This document shows positions 5,138 through 11,496 of a stretch of 27,605 nucleotides of DNA, piece after piece. The stretch is from positions 1 to 27,605 of the IMG/VR virus record IMGVR_UViG_3300034095_001197; one strand, given 5' to 3'. Origin of the DNA: a virus. A model generated the notes under the pieces. It was not told the origin of the DNA and ran no database searches. It was given only the letters and a program-made list of their open reading frames with translations. Position 1 is the first letter of the stretch; every line of letters starts with the position of its first letter. The position numbers and the translations under genes were made by a program.

Positions 5138-6625
5138 ATGCAACATTTTTATGACGGTGCTATACGAAGATATGTCACCCAGACAATTAGGATTCTTAGT
5201 GAATTTACAGTTAGATACGGCGACGGATCGTTACATCGTATACCAGTATTATACGGAGATGCTGATAGACAAGCTGCTAGTATCCTAAGACAGAATTCAG
5301 AAAATGCAATTAATTCAGTTCCTCGCATAAGTGTCTATATTTACGGATTAGATTTAGATCGAGACAGACTAGCTGATTCAACGTTTGTTAGTAAATTGCA
5401 TGTTAGAGAACGTGATATTACTAATGGTGCATACACCGGAAATCGAGGTAGAAATTATACAATTGAACGATTAATGCCAACTCCATTTAAATTAACAATG
5501 AAAGTTGACATATGGTCTGCAAATACTGATCAAAAATTACAAATTTTAGAACAACTGTTAATGTTGTTTAATCCTAGCTTAGAAATTCAAACAACTGATA
5601 ATTATGCAGATTGGACAAGCCTATCGGTATTGAACTTAGATTCAGTTAATTGGTCTAGTAGATCAGTACCTGTTGGAACAGACACTCCGATTGACATAGC
5701 AACATTAACATTGTCAAGTCCAATATGGATTAGTCCTCCAGTAAAAATTAAACAACTTGGTGTAATTACTAAAATTGTTACTGGTTTATTTGATGGAAGT
5801 TCTACTTATGCTACTCCGTTGTTCGGTGCTGATTATTTAGATCCAACTACTAAATTTGCCGAAGCAGGTACTGCATTTTTAGCAGAAGTTATTACAGTTG
5901 TTGAACAGTACAGTATTGAAGTATATGAAAATCAAATTACATTATTAAGTCCTAGTTATAGTAATGAACATGATACATCGCAATACAGCATGCCTGATGT
6001 TGAACGAGCAGTAACACCATGGGAACAAATATTATCAAAATATCCTGAAAAATTTATACCTCATTTTAGTAGATTATTTATAAAACAACGAAATGGTACT
6101 GAGATAAATGGTACTATTTCATTAAACAGTCAAGACGAATCAATTATGGATATTGACTGGGATATGGATACGTTAAATCGTAATACAGGAATAGACAGTT
6201 CAGGAAATTTAGACACTGATACTAATTATCATCTTACTAATCGAGCAAACAGTCCAGGTACGTTTGATGCAATTATTAACCCACTTGAGTTTAACCCACA
6301 TCGACCATTAAAACAGTCAACTGATCAACCTATTGCAATAGGTTTACGATATTTGTTAATTGAAAGTATTGGTTCAGATACAAACAGCGAAGGTGCAGTT
6401 GCATGGCGATCAACCGATGATATTGATTTAATTGCACACGAAAATGATATTATTGAGTGGACTGGAACTCGATGGAATGTTATATTTGATTCAGTATACG
6501 AAATCGATACAATGATTTGGCAGACTAATACATATACAGGTATTCAATTTGTTTGGAACGGTGTTGCATGGGCTAAAAGTTTTGAAGGTTTATATAGGGC
6601 AGGTACATGGCGGCTGGAACTGTAG
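5138..6625 (+). CDS. gp15: Tail completion / sheath-terminator protein (T4 gp15-like), enlarged
   Basis: A 495-residue protein whose first 210 residues match T4 gp15. It opens with HFYDGAIRRYVTQ (T4: YFYNSSFRRYATL), continues with IPVLYGDADRQAASIL and VPRISVYIYGLDLDRDR, then YTIERLMPTPFKLTMKVDIWSANTDQKLQILEQLLMLFNP, which parallels the gp15 'NPSPIKMIYELSIFTRYEDDMFQIVEQILPYFQP' block, and ends the core with WISPPV (T4 MYPPV). gp15 caps the tail tube and sheath and joins the tail to the neck. T4 gp15 has 272 residues, so about 220 are extra at the C-terminus. These include IIEWTGTRWNVIFD and IQFVWNGVAWAKSF, two copies of a W-x-G-x-x-W motif. It lies 44 bases after gp14 with a good RBS. Confidence 0.8.
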   Translation: MQHFYDGAIRRYVTQTIRILSEFTVRYGDGSLHRIPVLYGDADRQAASILRQNSENAINSVPRISVYIYGLDLDRDRLADSTFVSKLHVRERDITNGAYTGNRGRNYTIERLMPTPFKLTMKVDIWSANTDQKLQILEQLLMLFNPSLEIQTTDNYADWTSLSVLNLDSVNWSSRSVPVGTDTPIDIATLTLSSPIWISPPVKIKQLGVITKIVTGLFDGSSTYATPLFGADYLDPTTKFAEAGTAFLAEVITVVEQYSIEVYENQITLLSPSYSNEHDTSQYSMPDVERAVTPWEQILSKYPEKFIPHFSRLFIKQRNGTEINGTISLNSQDESIMDIDWDMDTLNRNTGIDSSGNLDTDTNYHLTNRANSPGTFDAIINPLEFNPHRPLKQSTDQPIAIGLRYLLIESIGSDTNSEGAVAWRSTDDIDLIAHENDIIEWTGTRWNVIFDSVYEIDTMIWQTNTYTGIQFVWNGVAWAKSFEGLYRAGTWRLEL

Positions 6626-7056
6626 TAGAAAATATAATTTGTAGCGGGGCATTAATATATGCACGATCAACTCATCGATTTTTGTTAATTCAAAAATCGT
6701 CAGGTAAACACCAAGGTACCTGGGGATTAGTTGGCGGTACTAATTTAATTAATGAGAATCCGTGGCAAGGTCTTACTCGAGAAATTGAAGAAGAAATTGG
6801 ATTTATACCAGATATTATAAAAACACTACCGTTAGAAAAATTTGTGTCTAACGATAGTGTTTTCAATTTTCATACATATTTTTGTTTAGTTGACTCTGAA
6901 TTTGTACCAATATTAAGTGATGAACATATTGCATGGGGTTGGTTTAGCTTAGTAGCATTACCAAAACCTGTACATCGAGGATTAAATCTTAGTTTGCGTA
7001 ATAAAGTTATTCAAACTAAAATTCAAACTGTTATTGATATTATTGATAGCTTATAA
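6607..7056 (+). CDS. NUDIX hydrolase
   Basis: A 149-residue protein with a perfect Nudix box at residues 44-66: G44, five residues, E50, seven residues, then R58-E-I-E-E-E-I-G-F66. The acidic residues bind the metal that hydrolyses nucleoside diphosphate-X substrates. The preceding GTWGLVGG is typical of the family, and a WGWFSLVALPKPVH segment near residue 117 is the usual C-terminal part. The ATG overlaps the end of gp15 by 19 bases, with a GGGCAGG site just before it, so translation is probably coupled. Substrate cannot be told from sequence: T4 NudE acts on ADP-ribose and dinucleoside polyphosphates, but this is not clearly an orthologue. Confidence 0.9.
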   Translation: MAAGTVVENIICSGALIYARSTHRFLLIQKSSGKHQGTWGLVGGTNLINENPWQGLTREIEEEIGFIPDIIKTLPLEKFVSNDSVFNFHTYFCLVDSEFVPILSDEHIAWGWFSLVALPKPVHRGLNLSLRNKVIQTKIQTVIDIIDSL

Positions 7057-7206: not shown

Positions 7207-7608
7207 TTATTTTAAAATGTTTTTTATTTGATTAGCCCAATAAATTGCATGTTTACTGTCTACTCTAATATTATAACTTTGAGGTTTTTCAAATAATTTG
7301 TTAGTATCATCATACTTACTACTATCTTGAGTATCAACAAATACTAAAAAATCAGCATTAAACTGTTCTCTAATAGCATTAGTTGGTGCAATAAAATCGC
7401 ATATAACATAATCAGCATTTGAAGTATTTGCTAATGTCTTCATTCTTTCACACTGGCGAAGTCTTCCACCGACACTAAAATCCCAATCATTATATTGTTG
7501 CCTAATTGTATCAGCATTAAACCATTCTGAGTTAGGTAATAATTTAATTAATTCTTTTGCTAAGGTAGTTTTACCTGAACCAGGTAAACCCATAATTAAA
7601 ATTTTCAT
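7207..7608 (-). CDS. APS-kinase-like P-loop protein
   Basis: A 133-residue kinase. Walker A is at residues 7-15 (GLPGSGKTT). The next motif NADTIR (31-36) corresponds to the LDGD-x-x-R of adenylylsulfate kinases, and ICDFIAPTNAIREQF (69-83) to their 'vSFISP-x-R-x-x-RE' block, followed by the strand FVDT (90-93). The ending (DDTNKLFEKPQSYNIRV, then YWANQI) matches a short subfamily usually labelled adenylyl-sulfate kinase, so it looks full length although classic CysC has about 200 residues. APS kinase makes PAPS, the donor used by sulfotransferases. The ATG overlaps the stop of the preceding gene as ATGA, so translation is coupled. An alternative is a P-loop kinase with another small substrate. 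Confidence 0.65.
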   Translation of the reverse strand: MKILIMGLPGSGKTTLAKELIKLLPNSEWFNADTIRQQYNDWDFSVGGRLRQCERMKTLANTSNADYVICDFIAPTNAIREQFNADFLVFVDTQDSSKYDDTNKLFEKPQSYNIRVDSKHAIYWANQIKNILK

Positions 7609-8135
7609 ACTGGGTTATTTTTAATATATTCCGCAACTGCGTATTCTCTAACAATAGGAGATGGCTCAAGTAGAGAGGCAGCAGGATAACCAAGATTAGT
7701 ATACGCTTCGTGTCTAATACCAGCATCGGGATTAGCAAATGCAGATTCTAAAAATCCAAAAATTCTATAACATTCTAGCCTTATAGGCAAATACGTATCT
7801 GTCAGTCCGGCTTCGGTATAACCATAAATTTGAGAAGCTTCATGTCTTACCCAATCAATAGGACTATTTACTTGATCTTTTGAATAACCAACCATTCGGT
7901 AATAGTTTTGTAAGTAGTACAGCGAGGTATCTTCAAGATTAAAATCATTAAAATAAACACTTGCATTCCATCTAATAATGGCCGAATCATCAGTTAGCGC
8001 ATCGGTAGTATAACCAAGATTATAATATGCAGCAATTCGAACCCGATAATCTATATCAGACAATGCATCAGTAGTAAACCCATTTGTTCTATAATATTTT
8101 AATCGTTCTAAAGCTGATAAATTGTTAAAATCCAT
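7605..8135 (-). CDS. 22-residue-repeat (HEAT/LRV-like) protein
   Basis: A 176-residue protein made almost wholly of tandem units of about 22 residues, starting around residues 5, 24, 46, 66, 88, 110, 132 and 154. The pattern is A-L-x-D-x-x-x-x-I/V-R-x-E-A-Y-x-x-x-G-Y/F, for example ALSDIDYRVRIAAYYNLGY and AFANPDAGIRHEAYTNLGY. The 'D-x-x-x-VR' core is that of alpha-solenoid repeats (HEAT, PBS-lyase HEAT, leucine-rich variant), here with an unusually short period. Such proteins usually bind other proteins. It overlaps the sulfotransferase by 11 bases upstream and the APS-kinase-like gene by 4 bases downstream, so it is translated as the middle gene of that cassette, with GGAGA before its ATG. 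No catalytic motif is visible and its function is unknown. Confidence 0.7.
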   Translation of the reverse strand: MDFNNLSALERLKYYRTNGFTTDALSDIDYRVRIAAYYNLGYTTDALTDDSAIIRWNASVYFNDFNLEDTSLYYLQNYYRMVGYSKDQVNSPIDWVRHEASQIYGYTEAGLTDTYLPIRLECYRIFGFLESAFANPDAGIRHEAYTNLGYPAASLLEPSPIVREYAVAEYIKNNPV

Positions 8136-8910
8136 GTTGTCTCCAGTATTCTAAATTGCTGTATTGACGTATTAAATCATCTGGTAGCAATTGATAACGG
8201 TTAATTGCACCTACAGTTGGCTGCACATCATGTAAACCAACTAAGTTAAGTTGCGCATCGCAATCTTTAATATTTTTAAAATTTTCTATCTTAGTAAAAT
8301 CATGTTCAAAATTATCCATTCCTAAAAACTCATAAATATTTTGCATTTCGGAGTTTGGATTTGCTACTAACGAGTCGTATTCTAATATGTAAATACGATC
8401 TGCAAACGTAGAATGTATTGCACTTTTTAATGAAGCTAAATGCCGTCCAACACTTCCATCCCATTTCATTAAATTCTCACATCTAAAATATACATTTTGC
8501 GTGCTGTTTAGATATACAGGAGAATTGTATTGATATATATTGTCTCGATAAACTCTCTCAAACGAATTTAATATAGAAGGAATATCACGAACACAGCAAA
8601 TAATTTTTAAATCATCTACTACTTCGTTTAATAGTTCAACAAGGTTAGTCCATGATCGGTTTGTGTCAAAAATTATAGGTTTATCTATATCACTATATGC
8701 AACATCAAAAACTGATTTAATCATTAACTTTATTTTGTCATTAGTTAGTAATTGATTAGTTCCAATCTGATCAATCTCCGTCATATGCTGTGTAACTAGT
8801 TGCACTGGTGATGAAATACTAGCATAACACATTGGATTTTGAACTAATATTGCCGAGAGCAGGGTTGACCCTGCTCTCGGCAACCCTGAAATAAAATAAA
8901 ACTTTTTCAT
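8125..8910 (-). CDS. PAPS-dependent sulfotransferase
   Basis: A 261-residue protein with both PAPS-binding elements. The 5'-phosphosulfate loop is at residues 8-18 (SGLPRAGSTLL), and the 3'-phosphate motif is IICCVRDIPSILNSFER (103-119), with Arg108 and Ser116 spaced eight apart as in known sulfotransferases. FDTNRSW (81-87) and a late HDF (204-206) also match a bacterial and phage family starting 'ISGLPRSGSTLL'. The enzyme moves sulfate from PAPS to a hydroxyl or amine of an unknown acceptor (sugar, lipid or protein). There is no signal peptide, so it acts in the cytoplasm. It leads an overlapping three-gene cassette with the repeat protein and the APS-kinase-like gene. A TATAAATA box upstream suggests late expression. 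The codons for the PAPS loop form a long palindrome. Confidence 0.88.
   Translation of the reverse strand: MKKFYFISGLPRAGSTLLSAILVQNPMCYASISSPVQLVTQHMTEIDQIGTNQLLTNDKIKLMIKSVFDVAYSDIDKPIIFDTNRSWTNLVELLNEVVDDLKIICCVRDIPSILNSFERVYRDNIYQYNSPVYLNSTQNVYFRCENLMKWDGSVGRHLASLKSAIHSTFADRIYILEYDSLVANPNSEMQNIYEFLGMDNFEHDFTKIENFKNIKDCDAQLNLVGLHDVQPTVGAINRYQLLPDDLIRQYSNLEYWRQHGF
8850..8888. repeat. Perfect 16-bp palindrome with alternative overlapping hairpin
   Basis: TTGCCGAGAGCAGGGT (8850-8865) and ACCCTGCTCTCGGCAA (8868-8883) are exact reverse complements separated by two bases. A second pairing competes with it: CAGGGTTG (8860-8867) and CAACCCTG (8881-8888) are also exact reverse complements, with a 13-base loop. 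The arms are GC-rich in AT-rich surroundings. The structure lies within codons 9-20 of the sulfotransferase, on its PAPS-binding loop. No U-run follows on either strand, so it is not a standard terminator. Confidence 0.92.
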
Positions 8911-8928
8911 TTACACCTCTTTTTTAAG

Positions 8929-8936
8929 TATTTATA
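8929..8936 (-). promoter_or_regulatory. T4-type late promoter box for sulfotransferase cassette
   Basis: The minus strand reads TTTTATAAATACTT, an exact TATAAATA, 19 bases before the sulfotransferase ATG, with an AAGAGGTG ribosome site between. It sits in the 50-base gap after the glycine-rich adhesin gene. The AT-only imperfect hairpin at about 8941-8958 could end the upstream transcript, but this is weak. Confidence 0.72.
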
Positions 8937-8960: not shown

Positions 8961-10955
8961 TTAAGCAAGAGCTCCACCTACAGTGCCACCATTTGACCAA
9001 GTAGTAATTTTTGAAAAATTTCGTATTGCATACCCGCCAGTACCGCCGGTACCGCCGCCTGTACTATATCCAGAGTTCCCGCCAGCACCGCCTGCGCCTC
9101 CCGGGCCACCACCACCACCACCACCACCGCCTGGTAATCCACCTGATGCTTGATATCCTGCGCCACCACCGCCGCCACCGCTTCCGCAGCCTGCTGCACC
9201 GCCACTTCCGTTGCTAGCAGCTCGTGAAAAGGTACCAGAAGAGTCGCCGGTGCCGCCGGTGCCACCACTACCGCCGTTATTGTAACCACCTGCACTGCCT
9301 GCGCCCCCGGCGGAACTACCAGCATAATTTCCTGAAGTACTATATGCAGATCCACCGCCACCACCACCACCGCGATATGTAGTAGTTGGACTATAGGTGG
9401 CGCCGCCACCACCACCACCACCACCACCGTGCCAGCCACCGCCACCGCCACCACCACCACCACCGCCGGCAATTACTCCTCCGTTATAGAAGTATTCAAC
9501 GGTTGTTCCTGTATCTATGTTTACTGCATCAGCGCCAGGATTGCCGTTATTTCCATTACTCAAACCAGAAGCGCCGGCACCACCACCACCACTGCCGGCC
9601 CAAATTGTAGCGTAGTTATATATTCTTATTCTAGGAACACTAGAGCCATAAATATGTACGGCGCCTGAACTACCGGCTGTTGACCAATTTCCAGTTAATG
9701 AATATGTATTTGAAACCGGAGTTGGTGTCATATTATAACTAACAGCTCCAGAGTTGCCAAAGTTGGTATACAGAGTTCCATTAACAATTGGTGTTCCTTG
9801 ATAGTTAGAAACTCCAGAAAGCCACGCGCAGGCAGCACTAGTCCCTTCTGCACTTTCACCGTTTGCGCTAACTGCTCTAACGCTAATTAGATATGCTGTA
9901 TTATTCGAAGACCCGGCTATATTTCCGGAAGGAACTGTAATACTTACTCCGCTAATACTAAGAGATGTTACATTATAAGTGGTAAACGTTGAACTTCCGT
10001 AATAATATCTAGCAACTACGGTATACGACGTTGCTCCGGCAGACGCTGAGTTTAAATATACTTGTATAGTGCTACTTGAAGTTAGAATCGCATAGTTAAT
10101 TGACGGTGCAGCAGGTGCTGTAGTTTTAATAACAGAACTAGTTGAAATACCAAACGTATTAGTTGCTTTTACATAATACGTATATTGAGTGTTTGCAGTT
10201 AAGCTAGTATTAGTGTAAGTATTAGTTCCGGATGCAGTGGTCCAACCAGAAAGTTGGGTAGTATTTCTCCATAAAGTAAATGTATACCCAGAAGTATTAG
10301 TCCATGATACTGTAATCTGCGTATCATTTACTACAGTAGCCGTTATTGGGTGTGCTAATGGTGTAGTTACCGAAAGGACAGTTGATGATATTAGTACTCC
10401 AGTTGAGTTAGAGGTTTTTACATAAAAACTATAACCAGTACTAGGAGTTAAATTTGTAATAATAGTATTAGTTGGATCAATTGTAGAAACTGTTCCAGTA
10501 GGTGATGGTGTACTTGATGTAATTTGTGTAGAATTATTCCATACAGTGTATGTAAATCCTGCAACATTTGTCCATGTTAGTTTAAACTGAGTTTCGGCCC
10601 AGGTGCCGTTAACTGCAGTAAGACCTGTTGGAGCAGCTGGGTTAGTAAACACTGATAATACCTTTGAAAATACAGTACCCGAAACATTAGCTGCCTTTAC
10701 AAAATAATCGTAACTAGTATTTGCAGTAAATGATGAATTATTAATAACCGCACTACGAGTTGATCCAGTTAACGAAATAGTAAGTCCGGAAAATACAGTT
10801 TTAGTTGGTCCGTAATGTACAGTGTATGTTGTTATTGCAGGATCGTTATCCCACGATAACGTAAAACCAGTAGTAGTGTAAGCACTAGCTGTTACGTTTT
10901 TTGGTGGTGCCAGTCCGCCGGCTGCAACTATTAATGTTGATAAAATTCCACTCAT
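8961..10955 (-). CDS. Tail fibre adhesin: FN3 repeats plus glycine-rich tip
   Basis: A 664-residue protein starting at MSGILSTL (ATG at 10955), chosen because AAGGATT lies six bases upstream; the frame extends to 11009 but with no ribosome site. Residues about 15-390 hold four fibronectin type III-like units, each starting near a proline (APPKNV, NPAAPTGL, PLAHPI, PAAPSI) and carrying the YTYYVKA-type strand. Residues about 440-664 are glycine-rich, with runs of up to 11 glycines broken by short polar or aromatic inserts, preceded by IRIYNYATIWAGSGGGG. This resembles receptor-binding tips built from polyglycine-II helices, as in T-even gp38-type adhesins, but homology is not shown. It lacks the N-terminal module of its paralogues; that module is in the gene just upstream (10966-11496). 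Likely a receptor-binding tail component. Confidence 0.8.
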   Translation of the reverse strand: MSGILSTLIVAAGGLAPPKNVTASAYTTTGFTLSWDNDPAITTYTVHYGPTKTVFSGLTISLTGSTRSAVINNSSFTANTSYDYFVKAANVSGTVFSKVLSVFTNPAAPTGLTAVNGTWAETQFKLTWTNVAGFTYTVWNNSTQITSSTPSPTGTVSTIDPTNTIITNLTPSTGYSFYVKTSNSTGVLISSTVLSVTTPLAHPITATVVNDTQITVSWTNTSGYTFTLWRNTTQLSGWTTASGTNTYTNTSLTANTQYTYYVKATNTFGISTSSVIKTTAPAAPSINYAILTSSSTIQVYLNSASAGATSYTVVARYYYGSSTFTTYNVTSLSISGVSITVPSGNIAGSSNNTAYLISVRAVSANGESAEGTSAACAWLSGVSNYQGTPIVNGTLYTNFGNSGAVSYNMTPTPVSNTYSLTGNWSTAGSSGAVHIYGSSVPRIRIYNYATIWAGSGGGGAGASGLSNGNNGNPGADAVNIDTGTTVEYFYNGGVIAGGGGGGGGGGGWHGGGGGGGGGATYSPTTTYRGGGGGGGSAYSTSGNYAGSSAGGAGSAGGYNNGGSGGTGGTGDSSGTFSRAASNGSGGAAGCGSGGGGGGAGYQASGGLPGGGGGGGGGPGGAGGAGGNSGYSTGGGTGGTGGYAIRNFSKITTWSNGGTVGGALA
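9107..9469. repeat. CCA/CCG trinucleotide tracts encoding polyglycine
   Basis: Three clusters of nearly pure (CCA/CCG)n repeats, at about 9107-9131, 9352-9372 and 9401-9469, encode glycine runs in the adhesin read on the minus strand. The last cluster is two tracts broken by codons for a short Trp-His insert. Changes in repeat number would keep the frame. Confidence 0.75.
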
Positions 10956-10965
10956 ATATAAATCC

Positions 10966-11496
10966 TTATGACACGCCTGCGCCTGATATAAACCATTTTG
11001 TTGATGCAATTTTAATTGCAGTTGCCATACCTCCTGCAGCTAATGTTCGCGTTGCAGTAGTATCACCTGATGGAATCCATACCATTGTATCAGTAGTAAT
11101 AGTAATTGATAAAACACCCGAACCAGTATCATTAATAAATGTTAGTACTGTACCAATCGGAAATGCAACAGACGAGTTTGCTGGTATAGTATATGTATGA
11201 GCAGTTGCACTACTATGAAATATATGTTTTCCTGAATCTGTTAGTACAACAGGATAAGACACGGCTTGTGAGTTTTGAGGAACAGTAATATAACCAACAC
11301 TTACAGTACCATCAACTGTACATGCTGATAATGTTCCAGAAGCTGGAGTACCTAATACCGGAGTTACTAATGTCGGACTAGTTGAAAGAACTAAATTTCC
11401 AGTTCCGGTTGATGTTGAGACACCAGTTCCGCCGTTTGTAACTTTAAGTACACCCGACGAAACTCCTAAAAGTATATCGGACAAGTTTTTAGCCAT
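10966..11496 (-). CDS. Short tail fibre protein with shared N-terminal module
   Basis: A 176-residue protein. Residues 1-55 (NLSDILLGVSSGVLKVTNGGTG, then LVLSTSPTLVTPVLGTPASG) are the NGGTG-containing N-terminal module also seen in the fibres starting at 13260, 14750 and 16863. The remaining 120 residues look like a beta-rich domain (KHIFHSSATAHTYTIPANSSVAFPIGTVLTFIN), equal in place and pattern to the second module of those fibres, and end with the strand KWFISGAG. Its stop lies 11 bases before the FN3/glycine-rich gene, so the two probably act together. The RBS is AAAGGAAA, and a late-type box lies at 11523-11531. Confidence 0.75.
   Translation of the reverse strand: MAKNLSDILLGVSSGVLKVTNGGTGVSTSTGTGNLVLSTSPTLVTPVLGTPASGTLSACTVDGTVSVGYITVPQNSQAVSYPVVLTDSGKHIFHSSATAHTYTIPANSSVAFPIGTVLTFINDTGSGVLSITITTDTMVWIPSGDTTATRTLAAGGMATAIKIASTKWFISGAGVS

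Follow-up and report, generated by a model that had tools for sequence, protein, structure and literature searches.

A cassette pairing a sulfotransferase with an APS-kinase-like protein beside the fibre genes of a jumbo T4-like phage

Do phages supply the activated sulfate that their sulfotransferases use? The question is raised by three overlapping genes in a 27.6 kb virus record (IMG/VR record IMGVR_UViG_3300034095_001197, positions 1 to 27,605), which derives from a T4-like phage of the jumbo kind and was analysed over its whole length of 27,605 nucleotides, hereafter the window. The genes encode a sulfotransferase, a protein built of 22-residue repeats and a small P-loop kinase that resembles kinases of adenosine 5'-phosphosulfate (APS). 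A first-pass annotation had read them as a self-contained late cassette able both to make and to use the sulfate donor 3'-phosphoadenosine 5'-phosphosulfate (PAPS). We find that the cassette is a real, recurrent phage sulfation operon. It is likely a mobile, fibre-adjacent unit in which the kinase makes PAPS from host APS and the sulfotransferase uses this PAPS. That reading draws on the genes and their families, the APS-kinase-like fold of a relative, most of the substrate-site residues by alignment, and the co-inheritance of kinase and sulfotransferase.

The assignment of the first gene as encoding a PAPS-type sulfotransferase is supported by a match to Pfam Sulfotransfer_3 (PF13469) at 2e-18, with 67.9 bits against a cut-off of 27, and by a match to PHROG_27463 at 1.1e-52. 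As the first-pass annotation had claimed, both cofactor motifs are present: GLPRAGST at residue 9 and RDIPSILNS at residue 108, which we take to be the 5'-phosphosulfate loop and the R...S motif of the 3'-phosphate, respectively. Residues L10, P11, R12, G14, T16, R108 and S116 are invariant in an alignment of 12 sequences. Searched by sequence to E 1, the PDB gave a single match, chain 4gox (E 8e-4), named a polyketide synthase and presumably a sulfotransferase domain. Homologues occur in 10 phage records (23.5-34.5% identical), which are those of cyanophage sulfotransferases and unannotated marine viruses. The cyanophage enzymes of PHROG_27463 (S-SKS1, S-SRM01 and S-SCSM1) are homologous to the window enzyme at 24-30% identity; that of S-SRM01 adjoins genes for a glycosyltransferase and a nucleotide-sugar epimerase. 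No kinase is annotated in the two cyanophage stretches read, and no cyanophage is among the five phage-record kinase matches.

By sequence and, as judged from a modelled relative, by fold, the kinase resembles a divergent APS kinase. Its best Pfam match is APS_kinase (PF01583; 2e-7, 31.6 bits against a cut-off of 21.1) and its best PDB chain by sequence is 2yvu, a probable APS kinase (E 1.5e-4). Among 40 members of the kinase family, APS_kinase matches all 40 at E 0.001 or better and TIGR00455 (apsK) matches 38. A profile of the family matched 30 PDB sequences, 24 of which are APS kinases or proteins with APS-kinase-like domains (best 1e-11). The modelled protein is that of a relative, L107 (L numbers denote individual loci), rather than the window's own; its predicted local distance difference test score (pLDDT) is at least 90 for residues 1-90 and 70-95 from there to residue 150. 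This model superimposes on the APS kinase 7yq0 with Z 18.0 (2.1 Å over 138 residues) and on human PAPSS1 with Z 17.6, and the 30 APS-kinase rows range over Z 15.3-18.0, compared with 14.5 for gluconate kinase, 13.9 for PSTK and 12.9 for shikimate kinase. Thus the profile, PDB and fold matches agree with the kinase assignment of the first-pass annotation.

Alignment with Escherichia coli CysC (K-12 b2750; 28% identity to the window kinase) shows which parts of the site are kept. Positions D65, R68, D74, F77, R82, R88, F107 and P169 of CysC are identical in 11 of 11 aligned phage kinases, and we assume that these positions form the APS site. In common with CysC, with 2yvu and 7yq0 and with the human PAPSS1 kinase domain, the phage protein has the P-loop, the second D and the R of DGDNxR, the F and two R of the APS-site segment, and F-[IV]-x-P. 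Other features weigh against equating it with known APS kinases. In all 11 phage kinases the DGD motif begins with N instead of D (CysC D63) and CysC N85 is replaced by Q; all 11 also lack the lid, a stretch of 19 columns between VDT and the FTGID-type segment; in the window kinase, of 133 residues, the six residues preceding the lid are deleted as well. The window kinase reaches 25.1 bits, far below the orthologue cut-off of 138.7 for TIGR00455, and the generic families AAA_18 and AAA_33 also match 40 of 40 and 38 of 40 family members. The window kinase is accordingly not classed as a CysC orthologue, and its reading as an APS kinase is well supported but unproven.

The kinase and sulfotransferase genes were followed through related loci from three anchors. 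Among the 80 viral records whose kinases are nearest (the best 80 of 418), Sulfotransfer_3 exceeded its cut-off in 29 (25 of 48 and 4 of 32), and in the window's own kinase clade it was found in 10 of 10 clusters. The kinase gene also overlaps sulfotransferase genes of other types that pass Pfam cut-offs, in L027 and L072 (Sulfotransfer_3) and in L077 (Sulfotransfer_2); the Sulfotransfer_2 gene cluster of L077 recurs in five further loci. In 11 hand-chosen kinase records with both genes, the distance between the two gave a Fisher combined p of 0.0013, with one record at 15 kb, and lends weak support. From the side of the sulfotransferase, 57 of 80 loci (the best 80 of at least 577) carry the kinase, a count biased by a query built from kinase-locus sulfotransferases; in 45 of them the two genes share a strand and overlap, the overlap being exactly 4 bases in 32.

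The third anchor was the NUDIX hydrolase gene that flanks the site, picked without regard to sulfotransferase or kinase. Of 80 such loci, 63 extend for 2.5 kb or more on the side of the cassette; 16 of these have both genes, 42 neither and 5 the kinase alone. Two of these five were dropped, their records ending early (L270 and L306), and three were credited with a sulfotransferase lying further out (L293-L295). This leaves 61 informative loci: 19 with both genes, 42 with neither and 0 with one; absence here refers to the 2.5-9 kb fetched, and a distant cassette could escape in short stretches. With at least 8 kb fetched, and L293-L295 again credited, 15 of 36 loci have both and 21 neither. These presence/absence counts use the stricter sulfotransferase profile, which excludes a TPR-like gene. 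When the NUDIX proteins were clustered at 95%, the counts became 7 versus 14 (Fisher 9e-6, one cluster mixed), and at 90%, 3 versus 10 (Fisher 0.0035). Each trait changes four times on the NUDIX tree, and all 3 independent pairs agree, numbers too small for a sign test to reach significance. With 19 loci holding both genes and none holding one, the simplest reading is that the pair is gained and lost as a unit.

Several of the same counts speak against so close a partnership. Sulfotransfer_3 did not exceed its cut-off in 51 of the 80 kinase records, many of which are short, and 23 of the 80 sulfotransferase loci have no kinase in the fetched stretch. Clustering of the latter at 80% sulfotransferase identity yields 23 clusters, 10 with the kinase and 4 with it adjacent. 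One kinase clade (L042, L044, L056, L059, L062 and L068) adjoins a RecA/UvsX-like gene and is without a Sulfotransfer_3 match; its members mostly have a separate nucleotidyltransferase gene beside the kinase. In addition, the five named phages with a fused form of the kinase, two of whose neighbourhoods were read, are not among the phage-record sulfotransferase matches.

Further neighbours of the kinase were noted. Genes adjacent to the kinase gene or in its vicinity in L029, L032, L041, L048, L049, L052, L053, L057, L060 and L079 encode small proteins with a GST motif close to the N-terminus, with 2OG-Fe(II) oxygenase-like genes nearby; these proteins are possibly divergent sulfotransferases. 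A group of ten loci by or near the kinase (cluster 6) was considered as sulfotransferases on a suggestive profile-profile match (P 2.6e-4) and a Pfam E of 0.01 in one member, and the partner in L037 fell below cut-offs; neither was counted. In L077-type loci the kinase and a Sulfotransfer_2 gene are accompanied by an Asp/Asn hydroxylase-like gene. Six loci without the cassette were read; four have fibre-like genes directly at the site and two have other cargo. In L269 and L301 the site between the fibre genes and the NUDIX gene is filled by carbamoyltransferase-, glycosyltransferase-, nitrilase- and radical-SAM-like genes.

The middle gene of the cassette encodes about seven units of 22 residues. 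Its product shows 28 identities at lag 22, and none of 5000 shuffles attained that number at any lag from 15 to 44, which bears out the repeat described in the first-pass annotation. The model is all helical, with helices alternating between 11 and 5 residues; its mean pLDDT of 77.6, from an alignment of five sequences, is only fair. No family scored above cut-off (Pfam, PHROG and NCBIfam orthologue profiles), the best PDB sequence match had E 0.029, no PDB structure matched at E 0.001, and no relative was found in phage records. Likeness to HEAT or leucine-rich-variant solenoids is weak (HEAT_2 E 0.26; best Foldseek E 1.3). The repeat gene is present in 9 of the 80 kinase loci, each time between the sulfotransferase and the kinase. 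All three genes therefore occur together in nine of 80 kinase-bearing viral records, three of which share these proteins unchanged with the window while four others form two near-duplicate pairs, leaving about five lineages; the trio is thus found in relatives. Sister lineages have, at the place of the repeat gene, genes for a TPR protein or for methyltransferase-like, large glycosyltransferase-like or carbamoyltransferase proteins, some of these named by reading of the sequence rather than by a profile scan.

Coordinates of the cassette and its flanks are collected in Table 1. They confirm the two overlaps described in the first-pass annotation, which make joint synthesis of the three proteins likely.

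Table 1 Features of the cassette and of the genes around it
Feature	Position	Strand	Basis or note
Sulfotransferase, 261 aa	8125..8910	-	Sulfotransfer_3, PHROG_27463, both PAPS motifs
22-residue-repeat protein, 176 aa, all-alpha, solenoid-like	7605..8135	-	Lag-22 identities, model
Lidless APS-kinase-like P-loop kinase, 133 aa	7207..7608	-	Pfam APS_kinase, PDB match, CysC alignment
11-base overlap, sulfotransferase and repeat genes	8125..8135	-	Coordinates
4-base overlap (ATGA), repeat and kinase genes	7605..7608	-	Coordinates
TATAAATA, T4-type late-promoter-like box	8929..8936	-	Exact match
T4 gp15-like tail sheath stabiliser	5138..6625	+	PF16724, 1.5e-22; flank
NUDIX hydrolase gene	6607..7056	+	NUDIX, 2.7e-15; convergent flank; anchor of presence/absence test
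Fibre-like gene upstream (FN3 domains, glycine-rich tip)	8961..11009	-	fn3, 3.7e-17; context

The T4-like character of the phage, also claimed in the first-pass annotation, is upheld and narrowed to the jumbo kind. The named relatives nearest to its gp15 tail sheath stabiliser are jumbo phages (among them Phosso, Atu_ph07 and PA5oct; 30-33% identity), and a stretch of tail-sheath DNA matches 121Q-type jumbo phages at 68% identity, with about a third of the query covered. Fibre- or virion-protein-like genes make up most of the minus strand between 27 kb and 8961, where a few genes match nothing. The last fibre-like gene lies on the same strand as the sulfotransferase gene and 50 bases before it; the cassette adjoins it and is followed by the convergent NUDIX and gp15 genes. 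No inverted repeats of at least 8 bases were found between the kinase and NUDIX genes. The tip of the fibre-like protein is glycine-rich (window 8961-11009), and the near-identical record L001 (3163-5175) has 670 rather than 682 residues, an in-frame length change. The gp15 gene overlaps the NUDIX gene (window 5138-7056), and PA5oct-like jumbo phages also have an annotated NUDIX under the gp15 match.

Strand and position suggest that the cassette is expressed with or after the fibre genes. An exact TATAAATA box stands where the first-pass annotation had placed a late promoter, ending 18 bases before the sulfotransferase start codon, as would suit such a promoter, and L004 and L005 have CATAAATA at the equivalent position; no TATAAATA-type box was found in the 75 bases before the sulfotransferase gene of L023-L026. 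The window contains six exact copies of TATAAATA against a shuffle mean of 6.06. The box is therefore present as described and not significant by itself, and we rejected it as proof of a late unit; its support is position and partial conservation only. All six copies lie on the minus strand, though their number is the chance expectation for both strands.

The claim of the first-pass annotation that the unit is self-contained is not borne out. A Sat-type ATP sulfurylase (PF01747) was not found in the window; CysD/CysN were not sought in phages. With no APS-forming gene found in the window, the unit appears to need host APS. Many relatives have the kinase fused to a C-terminal nucleotidyltransferase domain of about 116 residues, the arrangement that PHROG_10255 describes, and fusions in this PAPS-synthetase-like order were noted in L030, L034, L061, L077, L107 and others. 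The fused form accounts for 22 of the 45 sulfotransferase loci that overlap the kinase. PHROG_10255 'kinase' proteins (Stenotrophomonas phages DLP_6 and Suzuki, and others) belong to the same kinase family at 39-47% identity; unlike the window kinase, the profile and all five records are kinase-nucleotidyltransferase fusions, and no sulfotransferase is annotated in the two neighbourhoods read. A relative of this partner was not found in the window. A search of 33 records detected both positive controls (L063 and L114, known carriers) and gave no nucleotidyltransferase in the other 31, which come from the window's relatives and others and include lengths of 126 kb and 372 kb.

The partner is nearest in sequence to nicotinamide mononucleotide (NMN) adenylyltransferases (PDB 1f9a, 2.8e-7; NF002243 matches 18 of 18 members), and it lies below the NCBIfam cut-offs for those enzymes (first member 31 versus 181.2 and 33.6 versus 127 bits). 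A reading as a known ATP sulfurylase was tried and is not claimed (PF01747 E 0.099 in one of two members scanned, below cut-off). As in the bifunctional PAPS synthetase, human PAPSS1, the kinase of these relatives is followed by or fused to an adenylyltransferase-like domain; unlike there, the partner has about 116 residues and resembles NMN adenylyltransferases rather than Sat. The kinase-nucleotidyltransferase pair may be a minimal PAPS synthetase, and it is a broader lead beyond the window.

The pair is also found in marine bacteria. In the best 80 of at least 582 bacterial loci from one scan (SAR11, SAR86 and other marine genomes), the nucleotidyltransferase shares the locus with the kinase in 65 and is fused to it in 2. 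Forty genomes were chosen by hand; they are single-cell or metagenome assemblies of unstated completeness, and absences from them are soft. The nucleotidyltransferase was detected in 37 of the 40 and Sulfotransfer_3 in 30, of which 25 have neither sulfurylase detected; aprA passed its cut-off in 20 and Sat in 3, with CysD in a further 2. In nine of the 20 aprA genomes, which are related and not nine independent events, the nucleotidyltransferase precedes aprA on the same strand by 1.4-2.2 kb; in the others it is about 50 kb away (2) or on another contig (9). The kinase stands beside it in four of the nine linked stretches. Five of the nine stretches were read, and the order is PLP-enzyme-like, MFS-like, nucleotidyltransferase and PqqC-like (in either order), membrane-protein-like, aprB-like and aprA, all names but aprA resting on reading of the sequence. 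The nucleotidyltransferase upstream of aprBA in these SAR11-type loci (L365-L373; for example L366:3400-3780, with L366:5162-7021) is NMN-adenylyltransferase-like and has about 126 residues. Sulfurylase was found in 2 of 3 genomes without the nucleotidyltransferase and in 3 of 37 with it (Fisher 0.036), a small, uncorrected comparison that we do not use.

Standing beside sulfotransferases and APS chemistry, the kinase family keeps the company expected of an APS kinase. The aprBA-linked nucleotidyltransferase is, from its sequence context, a candidate for the missing enzyme between APS and sulfate, most such genomes having no detected ATP sulfurylase. We tentatively raise a wider possibility, about which we remain more doubtful than confident: that the lidless APS kinase and an NMN-adenylyltransferase-like protein of about 120 residues, doing the work of ATP sulfurylase, form an unrecognised minimal sulfate-activation system. 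Phages would fuse the two and couple them to several sulfotransferase families, marine bacteria (SAR11, SAR86 and others) would keep the gene pair or have the adenylyltransferase within the aprBA operon, as the missing enzyme interconverting APS and sulfate, and the lineage of the window would have the kinase alone, working on host APS.

The divergence of the kinase invites a different view, in which an APS-kinase homologue acts on another 3'-hydroxyl, for example that of a nucleoside-diphospho compound, while the sulfotransferase takes PAPS from the host. The Campylobacter APS-kinase homologue Cj1415 is said to act on cytidine diphosphoramidate. The score far below the apsK cut-off, the missing lid and the replacement of both CysC D63 and N85 in all 11 kinases would fit such a change of substrate, as would the RecA-like-gene clade and the two named phages with no recognised sulfotransferase nearby. 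Against it stand the overlap of the kinase gene with several sulfotransferase types, the agreement of the two genes in presence and absence, and the position of the nucleotidyltransferase partner beside aprBA, and we judge it unlikely.

The nature of the partner suggests yet another role, namely an NAD salvage pair of ribosylnicotinamide kinase and NMN adenylyltransferase, as in NadR, with the neighbouring sulfotransferase a coincidence. The partner's nearest relatives agree with this, and the kinase profile's 30 PDB matches include a nicotinamide riboside kinase (2.6e-4). That match, however, covers the first 36 positions alone, the P-loop part, the partner lies far below the NMN adenylyltransferase cut-offs (31 versus 181 for the first member), the window has no detected nucleotidyltransferase, and the kinase is co-inherited with sulfotransferases. 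Salvage thus strikes us as highly improbable; the absence of nicotinamide riboside kinase from the 50 structural rows for the L107 model excludes nothing. We give similarly little credence to a cassette serving sulfur assimilation, a phage cysC auxiliary metabolic gene feeding PAPS reductase with sulfation secondary, which is how phage cysC genes are read in the available text of one study (PMC10914622). Against it, kinase and sulfotransferase are both present or both absent at the NUDIX site and overlap in other phages, and ATP sulfurylase of either kind was detected in just 5 of the 40 bacterial kinase carriers; PAPS reductase was not searched for.

On the favoured reading, a sulfation cassette fed by the host, APS would be drawn from the host and the kinase would phosphorylate it at the 3'-hydroxyl with ATP to give PAPS. 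The sulfotransferase from the same overlapping gene set would then move sulfate from PAPS to an acceptor, the genes probably being translationally coupled and perhaps expressed late. Sulfate would most likely end up on the tail fibre or the cell envelope, at a sugar or residue; a sugar is favoured by the glycan-type genes in sister cassettes and beside the S-SRM01 enzyme, together with the adjacency of the fibre genes. The repeat protein would probably serve as a scaffold or acceptor-binding partner. The first-pass annotation had suggested that it may contain the acceptor itself; other lineages have different genes at its place.

The two halves of this cassette have been met separately. In the available text of PMC10914622, 62 phage cysC genes are read as assimilatory sulfate reduction, and 'sulfotransferase' does not occur in its main text; a sulfotransferase in OM43 phages is left unexplained, and what phage sulfotransferases do is described as unclear, in the available part of PMC10580990; and a 144 aa open reading frame of a jumbo Ralstonia phage is listed with an 'Adenylylsulfate kinase' match in that of PMC8504454. 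Our searches, which left out all bioRxiv preprints and most subscription papers, found no paper pairing cysC with a sulfotransferase in phages or viral genomes and none on sulfotransferases and sulfation of bacteriophage tail fibres. Joining the cysC-like kinase of phages with their sulfotransferases gives a testable answer to what both are for: phages supply PAPS to sulfate something. PMC10356861 mentions in passing that 'most SAR11 lack ATP sulfurylase'; if the partner produces or consumes APS, its role would for this reason reach beyond phages, to what SAR11 does with the APS of AprBA.

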